NCBI GenBank assembly: GCA_009783115.1
Contig: WRHT01000054.1
Span: 1 to 8,443, forward strand
Length of the DNA: 8,443 nt
From: Desulfovibrionaceae bacterium
Lineage (GTDB): Bacteria > Desulfobacterota > Desulfovibrionia > Desulfovibrionales > Desulfovibrionaceae
Reading direction: 5' to 3'
Made by a program: the position numbers and the translations under genes. Below the pieces are notes generated by a model, which made no database searches, was not told the DNA's origin, and worked only from the letters and a program-made list of their open reading frames with translations. Shown in pieces: positions 418 to 8,443 of the stretch. The first letter of the stretch is position 1, and every line of letters starts with the position of its first letter.

Positions 418-1140
418 TTACAACAATTCCTTAAAAGCGTTTGGAGTAAATATCACAAAGCCATTGGGCAGCCGGTCAAGAGTTCCCTTTGTGTTGAATT
501 TAATAAATTCTTTCAATGAATCGCGTAGTTCATTTTTCCGTTTACCAATTTTGTAATATGGTTCATTTTCATATTCATTATAATTTGGAACAATATAATA
601 TACATCGACTATTCCACCAGTACTCGTAACATTTTTGTGCATTCTTGCTATTTCTGGACGGTGGGTTTCTTTTTTAATTTGTATTTTAAGGTTTACAGTT
701 CCATCAGAATTAACAACTAAAATATCAACATTTTTATGATCTAGTTCAGTTCCCATTTTTACAGAATTTTTACCGAATACAGACTCGGCTACATATCCGC
801 CATGAATTTGTGTAATCAATGCTACCCAAGTTCGATATATTCTTGCTTTTAGTCCTTTTTTGAAGCAGTCACAATTGGTCCCAAAGCCTGTTGTATGCCA
901 AAATTTTATAATGTCATTTTCATGTTCATCCCAATAAACTTTATAATAATCGTCAAATAATACTGGTTCAGCAAGGGCACATTTGTTTTGCCAATATTGT
1001 TCATAAATTGTTCTTAGCGCCTGTATTTGTTTGGGTAAATCCATTTCAACAGTCTTTATAAATTGAAACTGTTCTCTATAGCTCTGCAAATCAACCGTTT
1101 TTAGAAAATTAGTGAATTGCGCCAATGTAAATCTTGTCAT
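418..1140 (-). CDS. TaqI-like type II restriction endonuclease
   Basis: A 240-residue protein when started at the ATG at 1140-1138. That start has GGGAA (1150-1146) five bases upstream. An in-frame ATG at 1152 and the longer frame to 1218 lack a ribosome binding site. I recognise it as a relative of TaqI (about 263 aa), which cuts T^CGA. Shared features are an N-terminal FIKTVEMDLP segment (residues 27-36), ARIYRTWVALITQIHGGYVAE (99-119), and a catalytic stretch with Asp134, Asp139 (ELDHKNVDI) and Gln154-Ile-Lys-Lys157. The spacing resembles the D137/D142/K158 active-site set reported for TaqI. Members cut double-stranded DNA as homodimers and normally need a partner adenine methyltransferase. 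None lies on either side here. The gene is strikingly AT-rich compared with its neighbours, which suggests recent transfer. The family assignment is from memory of the sequence. TCGA specificity is inference. Confidence 0.8.
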   Translation of the reverse strand: MTRFTLAQFTNFLKTVDLQSYREQFQFIKTVEMDLPKQIQALRTIYEQYWQNKCALAEPVLFDDYYKVYWDEHENDIIKFWHTTGFGTNCDCFKKGLKARIYRTWVALITQIHGGYVAESVFGKNSVKMGTELDHKNVDILVVNSDGTVNLKIQIKKETHRPEIARMHKNVTSTGGIVDVYYIVPNYNEYENEPYYKIGKRKNELRDSLKEFIKFNTKGTLDRLPNGFVIFTPNAFKELL

Positions 1141-1167
1141 AAAAATTCCCATATTTAGGATAAAATT

Positions 1168-1173
1168 ATTATA
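1168..1173 (-). promoter_or_regulatory. Possible -10 element of the restriction gene
   Basis: On the - strand a perfect TATAAT lies at 1173-1168, 28 bases before the ATG at 1140, in a very AT-rich stretch. The hexamer at correct spacing upstream (1196-1191, AACTGT) is a poor -35. A better hexamer, TTGCAT (1191-1186), is only 12 bases away. This is therefore a -10-only call. It would give a short leader that contains the GGGAA ribosome binding site. Confidence 0.3.
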
Positions 1174-1234
1174 TTTCAGCCTGTTATGCAACAGTTTACT
1201 TTGTTCAAGCGCCCGCAACGTATCCTTTCTTCTC

Positions 1235-1276: not shown

Positions 1277-1353
<77 letters not shown>

Positions 1354-1380: not shown

Positions 1381-4300
1381 TCACAGGGCCATTACGGCTT
1401 CGTCCACAACGCCCATGATTATCTTGAATTGGCTATGCAGCAGGTGCTCGGAGATGGTGCCCAGCAGTTCCCTGATTGGACGGGGCCAAGCTTCCTGTTC
1501 TACCCCGGCCAGCGCCTCCCTGGCGGCTTTTTTGTTGTAGGCCGCGCAAGCCGCCTTAAGGGCAAGCAGCTTTTCGCGCAGACAAGCCCGATCTTCATCG
1601 GCCGAACCGCCGTCCCCGACATCTTCTTTGGGGGTAATCCTGGCAATCAGCTTTTGCAGCTTGTTCAACAGGGCCGGAGTTTGATCCGCGATGCGCGCGG
1701 CATCCCCCTCCCGCCCGGCCTTTTCCAGTTTAAGCGCGGCCGCGGCAAGATCCGTCTCACCTATATTGGCGAGGGCGCTTTTAAGGCCATGCACATTGAT
1801 GACGTACATCCGCACATCCTCATCGTCATACGCCCCCTGTTTTTCGCATAACGCCTTCAAGACCGCGATGGCCCTGGAGGCGTCCCTTATAAAAATTTTC
1901 GCCAATTTCGGATCCATAGATGTCCCTGGGGATGCCTCCGGCGCATGATCGCCCTCATCAACGAAAAGGTTTTTCCCCCGGCGCGCGGCCTCAATGACTT
2001 CAGGGGACTGCCGGTCGCGTATGTATTTATTCAGCAAGACATTCATCTGGCGTATGTCAATGGGCTTGGGGATAAAATCGTCGAATCCTTTTTCCAGGAA
2101 GATCTCCGCCTGTCCAGCCACGGCATTGGCGGTCAAGGCCACGATAGGAAGAGTGTACCCAAGATCGCGCAGCCGCCTGGTCACTTCAAGGCCGTCCATT
2201 TCCGGCATCATGTGATCCATGAACACGATATCGTAAGTTCTGCCCTGCCTGATTTTTTCAATGGCCGCGGCCCCGCTGCCTGCGGAATCAAAGGCCAGGC
2301 CATACGGGGTCAGTAGCCCTTGGGCGACATAGATGTTCGTATCCACATCGTCGACAACCAGAACGCTGCCGTAAGGCATCGGCTCGCGGACGATCTGCGC
2401 CCTTTTCATGTGCGTACTGCTGTTTATGCGAAATTGCCGCATGTTTTCCACGAGTTCCGGACCCAACACCCCGGAACCGGATCTCTTCTGCGGCAAACGC
2501 ACGGTAAAAACCGAACCCAGGCCCAATTCGCTCTCCACAGAAATTTCGCCGCGCATCATCTGCACCAGACCGCGCGTGATGTTCATGCCCAACCCCGTGC
2601 CCTCGGTCGCACGGTTGGCATCCTGGTTAAAGCGGGTATATTCGTCAAAGAGCCTGGACACTTGAGCCTCCGTCATGCCTTGCCCAGTATCGCGCACACG
2701 GAAAACCATAATGACCTCGTCCGGGGCAAGCCCGTCCCCGGTTTCGTGAGAAACAGACAGGGTGACCAGACCCTTGGCCGTGTATTTGAAGGCGTTGGAA
2801 AGCACATTATTCAGGATCTGCTTGACGCGCAACGCATCGCCAACCACCACCGCCGGCGTGCTTTCATCCACCCGCAGATCAAACTCAATCTGCTTGCTGC
2901 CTATGCGCATCATGTTCAGTTGCGCGGTGTCGTTAATCAGACTCATGAGCTCGTATTCCTCGGACGCAAGTTCCAGCTTGCCCGCCTCTATTTTGGACAT
3001 ATCGAGGATATCGTTGATGATGCCGAGCAAGAGGTCGCTGGAACTGTGGATTCTGCCCAAGGCTTCCTTTATGTCCGGCTCAAGGTTTTCGTTTTGCAGC
3101 TGAATTTCGGTAATGCCCATGATGGCGTTCATCGGCGTGCGTATTTCATGGCTCATGTTGGCCAAGAATACCGATTTGGCGCGGCTGGCGACTTTCGCAG
3201 CCTCAACCGCGGTTTCCAGATCCCGCTGAAGCTTGACCGTTTCAGTCACATCGTCCGTGCTGCCGACAACGCCGACGGTCTCGCCGTCGCCGTCGCGCAT
3301 CGGCACCGTATAGGAATGGAACACGCCCCCATCTATTTCGCCTATCCAGTCCTGCGGACCCTCGCGGAAGGTTTTTTCCACATTCTTGATGACATCCAGG
3401 TGCCTGTTTTTAAGCCTGGCGATCTCCAGTTTTTTCCCTTCCAGGAAGGACGGCTCAACCCCGATGCTTTTCAGGTACTGCCCGTTAAAGGTCGTGATCA
3501 CGCCCTTGTCGTCAACGCTCCAGATAACTCCCTTGTAATTGCCGATGACGGCTTCCATCTTGGTGAGGGTTTGCCGCATGCGCCGCGCAATCTCGCCGCG
3601 CTGGACACTGCCCACGGCCAGAAGCCCCCACGAGCGCAAGGCATTTTCTTCGGAAGCGGAAAAAACGCGCCGCCGATGGCAATCGTCAAAACTTACAAAA
3701 CCCCAGAATTCGCCCCGCAGGAACAAGGGGACTACCAGGAGGGACTGGAGCTGATAGGGCGAAAAGAAACCCTGCCTGGCCTCCGGAAGGGTATCCAGCG
3801 GTCCGTTCAGGATCTCTCCCTTGGAAAGCAGCTCTTCCCATCTCGGCAAGGTCTCCTGGTAGGAAAATTCAAACAGGCTGTCGTCCATCTTCCAGTCAAC
3901 GTGCGTCCACTTGCACACCTGCCGGTAATAGAGCCTGCCATCATCTTTCCTGATATTCTGCCACAAATACACCCGGTCGGCCTCCAGGCAGTTGCAAAGC
4001 ATTTCCATGCTGCGATTCAGCGCCCCCAGATAGTCCTCCGCGCCGGATTCCAGCAAAAGCACGGCGGCGTAATTGATTATGCCCATAATCGTATGCTGGC
4101 TGTCCAGCTCTTCGGTACGCTTCTCCAGTTCCTGGGTGCGCTTGTGCACAATGGCCTCAAGCCCTTTTTCATCACGGCGCTTTCTCTGGAATAAAATAAA
4201 CAGGAGGACGAGTACGCTCCCAAGCAAGATGGATACGCCGATCAGCCACGGGCGTTGCTCCCGGGCCAGCCTCCCCTGATAATCATAGGTGTTATGCACC

Positions 4301-5862
4301 CAATGGGCGGCGATTCCCTTTACGTCGATCATGTGCAGCGCTTTATCCACTATGGAACAGAGCACGGCCTCGTCTTTATTGAATCCAAAAGTGGACTGCG
4401 CGGCGAATTCAAAAACGATGTTGGCCTTGTAACCGGAAAATTCATGGTAATTGGTCAGGGCGAGAAGCCGGCGCTGGCTTGACATGACCATGTCAACATC
4501 GCCGCGATCCAAGGCGCTGAAAGCCGCGTCCGAGCTTTCATATTCCACGATATTCTCATGGTTCGGGAACCAGCTGCGAAACAATTCGGAATACACGGTG
4601 GCTTTGGTCAGGCCGACTTTGACATTCCTAACCTCGCCCATGCTGATATTGCGGAAATCCGACTTGGATAGCAGGGCGTAGTTATCCGACAAAAGCATGG
4701 TCTTCGGCCATATGAAACGGGCCGCCCGGTCTTCCGAATAAAGCAATTCGGTAAGCATGGAGGCTTCCCCGCTTTCAAGCATTCCCAATAAATCAGGCCA
4801 CTCCGCGTAATGGTCGTTGACCAGCTCAAAGCTCAAACCAGTGAGCTTTTCCACTTCCCCAAGCACATCGAAGGCAACCCCCCGCCACTGCTTTTCATAG
4901 GTGTTGTAAAAACTGATCGGGTAATTGTAATGCTCGGCCGCAAAACGCGCCACCGGGCGGCTATGTATATGCGCCTTTTCCTCTTCGCTAAGCTGCGTGT
5001 ACAGCTTATGCCTCAAATAATCCTGGCGCCCGCGGTCATAAAGCCCGGCCAGATGGCGGCCGGCGCCGCTCCACAGCGCTTTTTGCACAACCGAAATAAC
5101 CGTCTCAAGATCCGGATTCCGCGTTGACAAGGAAACCGGGCTGTAAATTAGTGGAAAAAAATCCTCGGCAGCCACATCGCTATACTCGTCAAAGGCGGCC
5201 GCCTCCGCGCCGCCCTTGGCGAAAACGGCGTCGACCTGCCCGTTTTTCAGCATGGCGTACGCCGCGTCAAAATTATCTATAAAGATCGTTTCAAAACTGT
5301 AAGGCGCGCGCGCGGCAACGGCTTCGGCCGTGCCAGCGCCGCTCAGGAAGGCCAAACGCGGCGGACGCGAAAACGCGATATCGGCCAAAGGCGCGCCGTT
5401 CGCCAAGCGCACATACTTCACCAGGCGTTCGGTGATGGCTCCGGTCATGTAGCTGGTATCCGAGCGTTGCTCGACGACCGCCAGCTCACCTGTGAAGTCA
5501 ATCTCGCGGCGCTCAAGGCCCGCGAGCAGCTCCCCCCACTCATAGAGCGTTGGGATGAAAGACATGCCGAAGAGTTCGGCAAGCCAGCCGCAAACCAGCG
5601 CGGCATATCCTCCAATCTCTCCGCCATCGTCAATGAAGGCCTCCGCGCCCAGGATCGTCCCGTAAACAAAAACACTCTTTTGCTTTTGGAGATCTTCAAT
5701 GATCCGTATTTCGCCAGCGGTCACGCCGGGAATCTCCCGAAACGAGGCATAGGCCGGCGCTTCGCTCCGCCGTCCCACGGCGGATTTTTCGCAGCCCGAA
5801 AGCACAAGCGGCATAAGCAAAACGGCCAACGTCACGCACAGTATCCGCCAGATTGTTCGCAT
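1381..5862 (-). CDS. BvgS-like hybrid sensor histidine kinase (VFT-VFT-TM-GAF-PAS-HK-REC-HPt)
   Basis: A 1493-residue membrane sensor. The ATG at 5862 has GGGAGA (5873-5868) five bases upstream. Residues 1-24 form a signal sequence ending in a lipobox-like LSGC (Cys24). Two bacterial solute-binding (SBP_bac_3, Venus flytrap) modules follow at about 55-275 and 300-522, then a membrane helix at about 539-558 and a charged coiled-coil linker (560-590). Next come a GAF domain (about 600-755) and a PAS domain (about 770-878). The HisKA domain has phospho-His905 (SHEIRTPMN), and the ATPase domain has its N box near Asn1019/Asn1023, DTGQG (1058-1062) and GTGLG (1088-1092). The receiver has Asp1171/1172, phospho-Asp1216, Thr1244 and Lys1266, and the HPt domain has His1358 (HGLKSAL). 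All phosphorelay residues are present. The order is that of BvgS/EvgS with an added GAF. It is preceded 31 bp upstream by an HD-GYP response regulator in the same operon, its likely phosphate acceptor. The flytraps should bind a small periplasmic solute, whose identity cannot be read from the sequence. Having both a lipobox and a later membrane helix is unusual. Confidence 0.95.
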   Translation of the reverse strand: MRTIWRILCVTLAVLLMPLVLSGCEKSAVGRRSEAPAYASFREIPGVTAGEIRIIEDLQKQKSVFVYGTILGAEAFIDDGGEIGGYAALVCGWLAELFGMSFIPTLYEWGELLAGLERREIDFTGELAVVEQRSDTSYMTGAITERLVKYVRLANGAPLADIAFSRPPRLAFLSGAGTAEAVAARAPYSFETIFIDNFDAAYAMLKNGQVDAVFAKGGAEAAAFDEYSDVAAEDFFPLIYSPVSLSTRNPDLETVISVVQKALWSGAGRHLAGLYDRGRQDYLRHKLYTQLSEEEKAHIHSRPVARFAAEHYNYPISFYNTYEKQWRGVAFDVLGEVEKLTGLSFELVNDHYAEWPDLLGMLESGEASMLTELLYSEDRAARFIWPKTMLLSDNYALLSKSDFRNISMGEVRNVKVGLTKATVYSELFRSWFPNHENIVEYESSDAAFSALDRGDVDMVMSSQRRLLALTNYHEFSGYKANIVFEFAAQSTFGFNKDEAVLCSIVDKALHMIDVKGIAAHWVHNTYDYQGRLAREQRPWLIGVSILLGSVLVLLFILFQRKRRDEKGLEAIVHKRTQELEKRTEELDSQHTIMGIINYAAVLLLESGAEDYLGALNRSMEMLCNCLEADRVYLWQNIRKDDGRLYYRQVCKWTHVDWKMDDSLFEFSYQETLPRWEELLSKGEILNGPLDTLPEARQGFFSPYQLQSLLVVPLFLRGEFWGFVSFDDCHRRRVFSASEENALRSWGLLAVGSVQRGEIARRMRQTLTKMEAVIGNYKGVIWSVDDKGVITTFNGQYLKSIGVEPSFLEGKKLEIARLKNRHLDVIKNVEKTFREGPQDWIGEIDGGVFHSYTVPMRDGDGETVGVVGSTDDVTETVKLQRDLETAVEAAKVASRAKSVFLANMSHEIRTPMNAIMGITEIQLQNENLEPDIKEALGRIHSSSDLLLGIINDILDMSKIEAGKLELASEEYELMSLINDTAQLNMMRIGSKQIEFDLRVDESTPAVVVGDALRVKQILNNVLSNAFKYTAKGLVTLSVSHETGDGLAPDEVIMVFRVRDTGQGMTEAQVSRLFDEYTRFNQDANRATEGTGLGMNITRGLVQMMRGEISVESELGLGSVFTVRLPQKRSGSGVLGPELVENMRQFRINSSTHMKRAQIVREPMPYGSVLVVDDVDTNIYVAQGLLTPYGLAFDSAGSGAAAIEKIRQGRTYDIVFMDHMMPEMDGLEVTRRLRDLGYTLPIVALTANAVAGQAEIFLEKGFDDFIPKPIDIRQMNVLLNKYIRDRQSPEVIEAARRGKNLFVDEGDHAPEASPGTSMDPKLAKIFIRDASRAIAVLKALCEKQGAYDDEDVRMYVINVHGLKSALANIGETDLAAAALKLEKAGREGDAARIADQTPALLNKLQKLIARITPKEDVGDGGSADEDRACLREKLLALKAACAAYNKKAAREALAGVEQEAWPRPIRELLGTISEHLLHSQFKIIMGVVDEAVMAL

Positions 5863-5893
5863 ACGCGTCTCCCAACCTTACTTACGCCATAAA

Positions 5894-6967
5894 TTATGCT
5901 TTTTTATGCGCGATCCCATCATGTAAAACAGGCCCTTCGTGGACATACGTGTGCAAGATCTCGCTGAAGCGCTCTTTTACCCCGGAAAACGCCTCAACAA
6001 TCAAAGGGTCGAACATTTTGCCGGCATTGTCCAGGATCAGGGAGATCACTTCTTGTTCCGTGAAAGCCTTTTTATAATAAGGCCGATCCGAAAGAAGAGC
6101 GTCATACAGGTCGGCCACCGCCAAAATACGCCCCTGGATCGGGATATTCATTTCTTTCAGGCCGCGCGGATAACCCGAACCATCCCAGCGTTCGTGGTGG
6201 CTGCCCGCAAATAATTTGGCGTTGTGCAAAAACGCCAGATCTCCTATCCGGGCGAGAACCTTGTCAATAATCCGCTCGCCCGCGACCGTGTGCGTCTTAA
6301 CCATTTCAAACTCTTCCAGGGTCAGCGCCCCGAGCTTGTTCAATATCGTGTCCGGAATGGCAAGTTTGCCCACATCGTGCAGACGCGCAGCCGAAGTGAA
6401 CGTTTCCAGGTTCAAGGCGCCTATTTCATCGGCATAAATCCCACGCGCCATCATCTCGCCCGTTAATATCCTGACATACTCCGAGGTGCGTTCAATATGC
6501 CCGCCCGTCGCCTTGTCGCGATTCTCGACAATATCCGCCAGAATAAACACCAAGCCGTTGCGCAAGCGCTCCAGTTCCGCCGTCCGTTCACGGATCAGAT
6601 CCTCGATGCTCAGATGGCTCATGATACGGTTTTGCAACACAGGCGCGGAAAATGGCTTGGCGACGAAATCCGTCACCCCCATTTCAAAACCCCTGGCCTC
6701 CACAGAGGCGTCCACCACGCTGGTCAGAAAAACGACCGGGATATCCGCATATTCCTCGTGTCCCTTTAAACGCCGCAAGGCCTCAAATCCGTCCATCACG
6801 GGCATTTCAATGTCCAGCAGGATTAAATCCGGGATTATCTCTTCCAAAAGCTCAAACATGGCCGCCGCGGAGGGCAGGGTCATCACCTGGTATTGTTCCT
6901 CAAGGGCCAGCTCCGCCGTGGCCAGATTGGTGTCGTTGTCGTCAACCACAAAGATCGTTTTCGGCAT
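5894..6967 (-). CDS. Response regulator with HD-GYP c-di-GMP phosphodiesterase domain
   Basis: A 357-residue protein from the ATG at 6967, preceded by AAGGG (6980-6976) eight bases upstream. The frame stays open to a TTG at 7009, but that start lacks such a site. Residues 1-120 are a receiver: Asp9/Asp10, phospho-Asp52 (LLDIEMPVMDG), Thr82, Lys104. A short coiled linker follows (121-137). Residues 138-345 form an HD-GYP domain with ENRDKATGGHIERT (148-161), HD at 197-198 (RLHDVGKLAIPD), His226, His257/His258 and the signature HHERWDGSGYP (257-267). Metal-ligand and GYP residues are intact. Family knowledge: HD-GYP enzymes hydrolyse c-di-GMP to pGpG or GMP in the cytoplasm and are often activated by phosphorylation. 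First gene of the operon; the hybrid kinase begins 31 bp after its stop, so the HPt of that kinase is the likely phosphodonor. Downstream outputs would be motility, adhesion or biofilm state. Confidence 0.95.
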   Translation of the reverse strand: MPKTIFVVDDNDTNLATAELALEEQYQVMTLPSAAAMFELLEEIIPDLILLDIEMPVMDGFEALRRLKGHEEYADIPVVFLTSVVDASVEARGFEMGVTDFVAKPFSAPVLQNRIMSHLSIEDLIRERTAELERLRNGLVFILADIVENRDKATGGHIERTSEYVRILTGEMMARGIYADEIGALNLETFTSAARLHDVGKLAIPDTILNKLGALTLEEFEMVKTHTVAGERIIDKVLARIGDLAFLHNAKLFAGSHHERWDGSGYPRGLKEMNIPIQGRILAVADLYDALLSDRPYYKKAFTEQEVISLILDNAGKMFDPLIVEAFSGVKERFSEILHTYVHEGPVLHDGIAHKKA

Positions 6968-7120
6968 ATCCTTGTCCCTTCTTTCGTGTGGGGTCAGCAT
7001 TAGAGTCAAAAAATTTTATTGTTGCATAACACTCTTTTCTCCCAAAGGCTATCCTAAGCTCCCAGCGTATTTTTCAAGGACGCGCCAGCCCCCGGGCGGG
7101 CAAAGATCCGCAAAAGCACG

Positions 7121-7149
7121 TTGAAAAAGCCATAAAAATAACCGATAAT
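7121..7149 (+). promoter_or_regulatory. Strong sigma70-like promoter for the DisA_N-family gene
   Basis: TTGAAA (7121-7126) and GATAAT (7144-7149) are separated by exactly 17 bases with an A/T-rich spacer. Each hexamer matches consensus at five of six positions. Transcription would start near 7156, leaving a leader of about 100 nt before the ATG at 7255. It is the best promoter in the window and points into the rightward gene. A TTGAAA on the opposite strand (7077-7072) could serve the leftward two-component operon, but its -10 partner (TAGGAT, 7056-7051, spacing 15) is weak. Confidence 0.6.
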
Positions 7150-7152
7150 GCC

Positions 7153-7194
7153 CTCCAACAGGTTTGCCCGGAAGGCCGCCGGGCGGGCCTGGAG
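7153..7194 (+). other. GC-rich hairpin at the 5' end of the leader RNA
   Basis: GGTTTGCCCGG (7161-7171) pairs with CCGGGCGGGCC (7179-7189): eight Watson-Crick and three G-U pairs around a 7-nt loop. A further CTCCA/TGGAG stem (7153-7157 with 7190-7194) lies beyond a 3-nt bulge. No T-run follows on either strand, so it is not a standard intrinsic terminator. Given the predicted start near 7156, the 11-bp stem would be almost the first thing transcribed and could act as a 5' stabiliser or a regulatory leader. The outer stem would be only partly transcribed. CCGGGCGGGC also occurs at 7092-7101, giving a direct repeat. Confidence 0.5.
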
Positions 7195-7254
7195 ATATTA
7201 AGGCGGCGCCCCGGCGATTGTCATGGGAATTTATTACAGAGAGGATGCTATTTA

Positions 7255-8443
7255 ATGCACAGCAAATTTTCCGAACTTTTTGACAACTGGCCCGCCTATA
7301 CGCAAAAAATCGGCGAACTATACGCGCGTTTGGGCGAACTGTTGACGGATTTAGGCATAACCCGAAGCGATGTCCGGATAATAGTCTTTATCAGCAGCGC
7401 ATGGCGCGGCGAACTCATGTTTTACGATTCAAACGGAAATTCAGGAAGTTCACAGCAATATTTGAAAACAAGTGATAAACATACAGATGAAGAACATCTT
7501 ATAAAATTATTTGATATTAAAATAGAACATTCATTATTAAATTTTGACAGCAACGCTGACGATCTTAAATCATATGATGAATTTGGCATTATTAACCACG
7601 GGCATGAAAATATTTGTGCATATGGTGTAATAATACAATACCCACAAATCGGATCTTCAAAAATAATTTTTGAATTATTATATCAAATAAGTTTGTTTTG
7701 TAAAAATGTCTTAGATAATGAAAATTTTGTAATTGAAGAATATATGTTGTCAAATATTGTCTATGTTTCCTTAAAAAAACAAATAGATATAGATTTTTAT
7801 AACACCCTGGCGTCAAGCCCTTATGAAAAAAAGGTTGCGTCCGGAGGGATACTACTGGCAAACACGGAACAGGATTATGATCTCAAATTGAACTTTAACG
7901 AAACATACCCTCTAGAAGTTAAAAATGTTAAACAAATTAGAAAACTACTTGAAATGACTACTGATAGACTATTTTTGGTATCAAAAAACGGCCATGTCAT
8001 AGGCGCAAGTGATTCCATAAATTCAGATAATAATTCTGAATTATTTATATTCAATGGACATCAGAGATGGTCTTATTATAAAAACGGCAGGGAACTTTTG
8101 TCATATAAAGAAGGTAAATATACTTTTGTTTTTGAAAGCAATAATAACTTCGTTTATTACTTCCCAAATGGCTTCATAAGTAAAAATAATTATGGATACT
8201 TAAATGTTATTTTGCACGAAATAAAGCAGCTCAGGCATGGAACATTATTAATAATTTCAGATGACGCGCAATATGAAGTTGATCGGCTATGCATGCTGAG
8301 AAGGGGATACGCCATAAAACCTATTGATTTTAAACTGCCTGTAAACAGATATTTATTATCAAGCATTACATCAATAGATGGCGCAGTATTCCTTGACACA
8401 AATTTTATTTGTTACGGAATAGGCATGATTCTGGATGGAGTCG
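7255..8443 (+). CDS. DisA_N (diadenylate cyclase-type) domain protein with unassigned N-terminal region, partial
   Basis: Open from the ATG at 7255 (AGAGAGGA at 7238-7245, nine bases upstream) to the window edge, 396 codons with no stop. From about residue 322 it matches the DisA_N fold as I remember it: RHGTLLIISDDAQYEVDRL (327-345), IKPIDF, then SSITSIDGAVFLDT with the DGA motif at 375-377 and YGIGMILDGV up to the edge. Family knowledge: DGA helps bind ATP in c-di-AMP synthases. The second motif (RHR, or ARGARYNSA in the relatives I recall) lies beyond the window, so activity cannot be judged. The first 320 residues have no signal peptide or membrane helix. They open with amphipathic helices (1-40), then a mixed region rich in Asn, Tyr and Ile. 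Related proteins carry assorted N-terminal sensor domains and I cannot tell which this is. The first 55 or so codons are GC-rich and the rest strongly AT-rich with small GC pockets, a mosaic. A stand-alone ligand-responsive cyclase is the best guess. Confidence 0.8.
   Translation, partial: MHSKFSELFDNWPAYTQKIGELYARLGELLTDLGITRSDVRIIVFISSAWRGELMFYDSNGNSGSSQQYLKTSDKHTDEEHLIKLFDIKIEHSLLNFDSNADDLKSYDEFGIINHGHENICAYGVIIQYPQIGSSKIIFELLYQISLFCKNVLDNENFVIEEYMLSNIVYVSLKKQIDIDFYNTLASSPYEKKVASGGILLANTEQDYDLKLNFNETYPLEVKNVKQIRKLLEMTTDRLFLVSKNGHVIGASDSINSDNNSELFIFNGHQRWSYYKNGRELLSYKEGKYTFVFESNNNFVYYFPNGFISKNNYGYLNVILHEIKQLRHGTLLIISDDAQYEVDRLCMLRRGYAIKPIDFKLPVNRYLLSSITSIDGAVFLDTNFICYGIGMILDGV

Follow-up and report, generated by a model that had tools for sequence, protein, structure and literature searches.

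The question raised by an 8,443-nucleotide stretch of a Desulfovibrionaceae bacterium assembly (GCA_009783115.1, contig WRHT01000054.1, analyzed whole and hereafter called the window) is what kind of enzyme is encoded by the open reading frame (ORF) that runs off its right end. The C-terminal part of this ORF carries hallmarks of the DisA_N (DAC) family, and an initial annotation had described the preceding 320 residues as matching nothing and proposed a new arrangement of sensor and cyclase. The protein was found to belong to the DACNH-DAC family, whose members carry a DACNH domain (PF21750) before a DAC domain (PF02457), and within it to a subfamily with an N-terminal domain of its own. Its sequence suggests that it likely works like a regulated dinucleotide cyclase, and a divergent REC-HD-GYP gene is its candidate phosphodiesterase partner.

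Domain architecture of the window protein

The closest protein identified in a protein search, P0002, is 446 residues long, shares 91% identity with the window protein, and is encoded at locus L001 of a Desulfovibrionaceae assembly (contig WRIL01000003.1). The window DNA aligned with this contig at approximately 90% identity from position 1275 to the window end. The ratio of nonsynonymous to synonymous substitution rates (dN/dS) between the two genes was 0.117 over 396 codons. By part, it was 0.178 for residues 1-165, 0.091 for residues 166-320, and 0.078 for residues 321-396, and hence all three parts are apparently under purifying selection. On these sequence grounds, the 91% identical relative of 446 residues and the dN/dS of 0.117, the ORF is a real gene. 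Isolate names hint at termite guts as a possible source. The window protein had no match in PADLOC, and a search by sequence for a solved structure returned none.

The Pfam DACNH profile matched residues 180-268 with 51 bits (cut-off 27). The Pfam DAC profile, with the same cut-off of 27, scored 13.6 bits in the cut window protein and 31.5 bits in the full-length P0002, and the predicted fold also assigned this segment to the DAC fold. A DAC match at full length, on which the initial annotation had made its assignment depend, was therefore found, and the two domains stand over their cut-offs in P0002 in the same order as in other DACNH-DAC proteins. Among the aligned rows, DACNH was matched in 22 of 22 and DAC in 18 of 22 (E up to 1). 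The description of a front matching nothing thus held for residues 1-165, which had no Pfam match over cut-off and differ in this from DACNH-DAC proteins, but not for the DACNH part, and a new domain without relatives was ruled out for the latter.

Fold predictions, compared with a listed set of fold families, indicated a weak GAF-like arrangement for residues 13-158 and a degenerate DAC fold for the DACNH domain (Table 1). Much of the supposedly unassigned front is, on this prediction, probably a degenerate copy of the DAC fold. Second-domain matches in three proteins, considered as HMMER support for this relationship, were rejected as noise (E 11-47). Pfam itself labels DACNH a 'probable sensor domain'. 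Profile comparison gave nothing significant that would relate the N-terminal domain to DAC, to DACNH, or to the N-termini of more distant DACNH-DAC relatives (E 0.46 for the last).

The architecture differs from that of DisA, CdaA, and CdaS in the second, degenerate DAC-fold domain that is predicted before the catalytic one. As the initial annotation had recognized, the front is neither the membrane anchor of CdaA nor the layout of DisA: the highest 19-residue hydropathy mean was 1.37, located inside the DAC domain, whereas a CdaA reached 2.18 (residue 13), and other DisA domains had no Pfam match. The protein is probably soluble. While a sensor plus cyclase arrangement is plausible, it is not new as such, because DACNH is an already named Pfam family matched in every aligned row, and a relative forms part of the DS-2 anti-phage system, as its third protein (PMC13092281).

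A branch-wide change at the catalytic motif

The motifs RHGTLLII (residues 327-334), DGA (375-377), and GIGMILDGV (388-396) were present in the translation exactly where they had been annotated. However, RHGTLLII is not the catalytic RHR motif, whose equivalent, at residues 408-410 within the block 405-412, falls past the end of the window. In P0002 this block reads RGARYNSA. The DGA signature of canonical diadenylate cyclases was thus found and the RHR signature was not, which places the window protein outside the canonical diadenylate cyclases as far as motifs define them.

The protein search returned 65 relatives. In a 65-row alignment (A2), and hence in all figures for these rows, locus L018 is represented by a DAC-like, motif-less gene (8208-9554) instead of its better member (9569-11629). 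DGA was conserved in 62 of the 65 rows, the other three reading DGS (two rows) or DGV (one row). At the RHR site, 62 of the 64 covering rows had either RYN (59) or RFN (3), and the exceptions were RLN in L007 and the decayed row of L018. A wider set beyond A2 included two further exceptions, L006 (RLN) and L049 (RHN). DS2_3 proteins, which belong to the DS-2 system, contained IDGT with RGSRYNSG in Citrobacter and with RGARYNSA in Gluconobacter, whereas a canonical CdaA in the same comparison had HDGA and IGTRHRAA. Because DS2_3 members are also of the RYN type while the canonical CdaA keeps RHR, the change from RHR, the form in DisA, CdaA, and CdaS, is a branch-wide one in the sequences compared. 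In a tree of 66 DAC domains, which was midpoint-rooted and had several long branches and an unsure inner order, the canonical and RYN-type rows were separated at a support of 100/99.

The two DAC-type genes of L018 (8208-9557 and 9569-11629) are adjacent on the forward strand, with a spacing of about 11 bp. Motifs are lost in the first, which has DGV and no RGxRYN block and scored 30.7 bits to the DAC profile, and the second retains IDGA and RGARYNAA. Such a dead gene beside a live one would be a parallel to a dead and a live domain within a single chain.

Distribution of the subfamily

Identity to P0002 over the N-terminal domain was at least 35% in 44 of the 64 other rows of A2 (P0001 to P0048) and at most 22% in the other 20. 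Given this split, the N-terminal domain marks a subfamily. In the DAC tree, ten subfamily rows grouped at a support of 94/51 only, and together with L003 and P0056 at 100/96.

Full-length subfamily matches were rare in named genomes. In a pattern-based scan of a species-genome collection, two of 20 loci matched the subfamily over residues 1-442 or more. Around G002, the genome of the Oscillospiraceae locus L002, the sole full-length match in 394 genomes of the order and in 199 relatives was G002 itself; a match in G312 (E 2e-13) covered profile positions 278-418 only. In the family of G001, the genome of L001, the subfamily profile matched 66 of 247 genomes, nearly all over the last half or third only. 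Every one of the 66 loci other than L001 itself contained a DAC. Scores of the DACNH profile at these loci were 81-124 bits, a range that is partly circular since some of them trained the profile.

Pairing with HD-GYP genes

Head-to-head with the DACNH-DAC gene lies a gene for a REC-HD-GYP response regulator (Table 1). Its HD_5 domain scored 105 bits, and the sequences LHDVGK and HHERWDGSGYP show both the HD and the GYP (HHxxxxGxGYP) signatures of HD-GYP phosphodiesterases to be intact. The intergenic region contains one promoter-like match per strand, by consensus match only. RpfG-type REC-HD-GYP phosphodiesterases (PMC12072042) share with the neighbor its two domains, intact signatures, and an adjacent hybrid kinase; the neighbor differs from them in its head-to-head placement with a DAC-type gene. 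Based on domains and position, it is a candidate phosphodiesterase partner of the DACNH-DAC gene, and the hybrid histidine kinase behind it likely acts on this regulator.

The pairing was conserved beyond the window. The REC-HD-GYP protein of L001 is 91% identical to that of the window, and that of L002, an assembly from a second phylum, is 64% identical over 328 residues and is likewise encoded divergently to a DAC gene. The DACs of P0002 and L002 share 52% identity. In L001, the regulator and kinase genes are separated by a glycosyltransferase-like gene (6381-7139, reverse strand). The regulator of L002 is followed by two genes that are not kinases, one for an ABC-2 membrane protein and then one for a DUF4143 ATPase. 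Since the kinase arrangement differs among the three loci, the shared unit consists of two genes.

Across 66 Desulfovibrionaceae loci (789,343 bp), 26 HD-GYP-type genes were identified with a profile trained on eight sequences only, which divergent members may escape. An HD-GYP gene was found downstream of DACNH-DAC, on the same strand and within 476 bp, in 14 of these loci and in none of the other 52; a coarser ORF call, superseded by these counts, had detected a DAC at 54 of the 66 loci and an HD-GYP gene in nine flanks. Thirteen of the 14 apparently form one orthologous group with the HHER..G.GYP block kept (L095, L101, L104, L106, L112, L113, L120, L121, L123, L133, L142, L146, and L148). 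The LHD.GK pattern was not found in this group, of which three inspected members read LYDIG, and its first HD motif is apparently altered. The fourteenth is a separate HD protein, encoded 3 bp behind the DACNH-DAC gene of L089 (genome G013; 4838-5971, reverse strand), with LHDLGK and no GYP pattern; its front part looks GAF-like by eye. Together with the divergent pair, these cases suggest roughly three independent DAC/HD-GYP pairings, not seventeen.

Table 1. Features of the window, with positions numbered from its first nucleotide.
Feature	Position	Strand	Description
DACNH-DAC cyclase-like gene	7255..8443	+	ATG at 7255; 396 codons in the window, open at the window end
N-terminal domain, residues 1-165	7255..7749	+	no Pfam match over cut-off
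DACNH domain, residues 179-290	7789..8124	+	degenerate DAC fold by prediction; DGA and RHR lacking
DAC catalytic domain, front two thirds, residues 306-396	8170..8442	+	Pfam DAC and predicted fold
RHGTLLII	8233..8256	+	first conserved DAC strand
DGA, residues 375-377	8377..8385	+	translation and alignment
Divergent intergenic region	6968..7254	.	287 bp, between the DACNH-DAC and REC-HD-GYP genes
REC-HD-GYP response regulator	5894..6967	-	REC 6623-6955; HD_5 6005-6541
Hybrid histidine kinase	1381..5862	-	SBP_bac_3, GAF, HisKA, HATPase, REC, Hpt; follows the regulator gene after a gap of 31 bp
tRNA gene	1277..1350	+	
TaqI-like restriction endonuclease	418..1218	-	PF09573, 134.8 bits; PADLOC REase_II

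Genomic setting of c-di-AMP functions

No Pfam DAC match was found in G001 at E 0.001, and none in eight of 38 other genomes sampled around it in the same search. Because the RYN-type gene itself escapes this search in G001, the search was repeated with a canonical CdaA, which gave no match in G001 at E up to 1 and strong matches in G002, G018, and G019. G001 and the other genomes searched are assemblies of unknown completeness. A PgpH-type 7TM-HD protein was present in nine of the ten genomes searched and was missing from that of L002. It was kept in G001, G012-G017, G020, and G029, none of which had a Pfam DAC match.

The genome of L001 had nine GGDEF and 11 HD_5 matches, compared with two and three, respectively, in the genome of L002. 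With both domains present in both genomes, the HD-GYP enzymes may serve ordinary work on cyclic di-GMP (c-di-GMP). A riboswitch for cyclic di-AMP (c-di-AMP) was not found in the window, L001, or L002, where Rfam at the gathering threshold returned only two tRNAs.

Proposed mechanism

From N- to C-terminus, the protein would consist of a GAF-like domain, the DACNH domain as a DAC fold without catalytic activity, and a catalytic DAC of the RG-x-R-Y-N type. DAC domains such as those of DisA and CdaA must meet face to face to join two ATP molecules into c-di-AMP. A signal on the N-terminal domain may decide whether two catalytic domains meet in this way, and the dead DAC domain would be the regulatory element, packing against or arranging the catalytic ones. 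The hybrid kinase would phosphorylate the divergent REC-HD-GYP protein, which in this form would hydrolyze the product of the cyclase; that the HD-GYP protein erases this product is a good hypothesis. The product may not be c-di-AMP, since RHR is replaced by RYN. Taken as a whole, this account, a cyclic-dinucleotide synthase regulated by a dead DAC domain and opposed by a REC-HD-GYP hydrolase, appears somewhat probable to us. A broader claim is more tentative and rather doubtful in its entirety, namely that a self-contained circuit of a pseudo-DAC-controlled cyclase and an HD-GYP eraser crosses phyla, operates in a lineage without a canonical synthase, and reflects a control to which the DS-2 DACs are likewise subject.

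In the literature searched, which did not extend to Galperin 2023 ('All DACs in a row'), no account was found of such a circuit, of a DAC-like DACNH fold, or of HD-GYP neighbors. If DACNH is a degenerate DAC, pseudo-enzyme control of DAC pairing would become a concrete hypothesis for the whole family, including DS-2, and a DAC-paired HD-GYP enzyme would widen the substrates considered for HD-GYP proteins. The two-gene system is small enough for reconstitution in vitro.

Alternative explanations

The protein may instead act in defense, as DS2_3 does, with its DAC working alongside the cyclase and effector of a cyclic oligonucleotide-based antiphage signaling system (CBASS). DS2_3 (NF053872; PMC13092281) shares DACNH and the RYN-type DAC, and its model matched residues 180-396 of the window protein (111 bits, E 4e-32); a distant relationship between the N-termini of the two groups is possible (profile E 0.015, probability 3%). 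However, P0002 scored 169 bits, far below the cut-off of 630, over the last two domains only, and has about eight residues after the DAC match where DS2_3 has some 90. True DS2_3 members, carried on Citrobacter (L075) and Gluconobacter (L076) plasmids, scored 804 and 712 bits and adjoin a patatin phospholipase and a CD-NTase, and 15 of 30 homologues occur with CBASS according to the DefensePredictor authors (PMC13092281). Such a cyclase and phospholipase were lacking in the examined flanks of L001 and L002, and the gene next to the DAC gene of L001 encodes a SIS-domain protein. Additionally, 92 flanking ORFs from 19 loci (at most three per flank of the DAC gene, at 17 of the 20 pattern-scan loci and two plasmid loci, excluding genes over 1,400 residues) matched 18 PADLOC families, none of them a CBASS cyclase or effector model; both kinds of model were matched on the plasmid control loci. 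Some flanks were nonetheless of a defense type, including the candidate system PDC-S01 (two ORFs), a CARF-ADA model, methyltransferases, and, in a Chloroflexi assembly (L017:1231-4374, forward strand), an ORF with nSTAND1 and FGE-sulfatase domains that overlaps the end of the DACNH-DAC gene. A search of 50,697 phage records gave no match, nor was any confirmed in viral contigs, and a phage or prophage origin was rejected on this basis. By its score and by the neighbors examined at L001 and L002 the protein is placed outside DS2_3, and a defense role seems quite unlikely.

A stand-alone c-di-AMP synthase that replaces a lost CdaA, with the HD-GYP neighbor an ordinary c-di-GMP enzyme, would fit G001, where no canonical DAC was found, a PgpH-type protein is present, and 11 HD_5 matches make such a neighbor no rarity. 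Yet the pair was kept in a second phylum, in a genome with only three HD_5 matches and a canonical CdaA, the PgpH-type protein also occurs in eight other genomes in which Pfam DAC had no match and is hence not tied to this gene, and absences in assemblies of unknown completeness are to be read with care; this replacement is unlikely. It is also conceivable that the DAC domain has lost its activity along with RHR and became a nucleotide-binding sensor or scaffold. In M. tuberculosis DacA (PMC3328451), changing RHR to AAA abolished activity, which together with R[YF]N in 62 of 64 covering rows counts against an active cyclase; G73A in DGA did not abolish it, so that the kept DGA carries little weight. 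On the other side, the near invariance of DGA and of the RGxRYNS block is unlike decay, and the first arginine of RHR is retained. Moreover, phage defense by DS-2 was abolished when two residues of its DAC predicted to be catalytic were mutated (PMC13092281), which disfavors a simple loss of function. An inactive DAC domain is accordingly judged very unlikely, and the regulated cyclase remains the preferred account.

Other features of the window

The similarity to L001 begins at the tRNA gene near the left end of the window (Table 1), a possible integration site. On the L001 side of this shared tRNA, an integrase-like reading frame was noted by eye, and the two contigs do not align there, so the flank is variable. 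On the window side, the flank encodes the TaqI-like restriction endonuclease.
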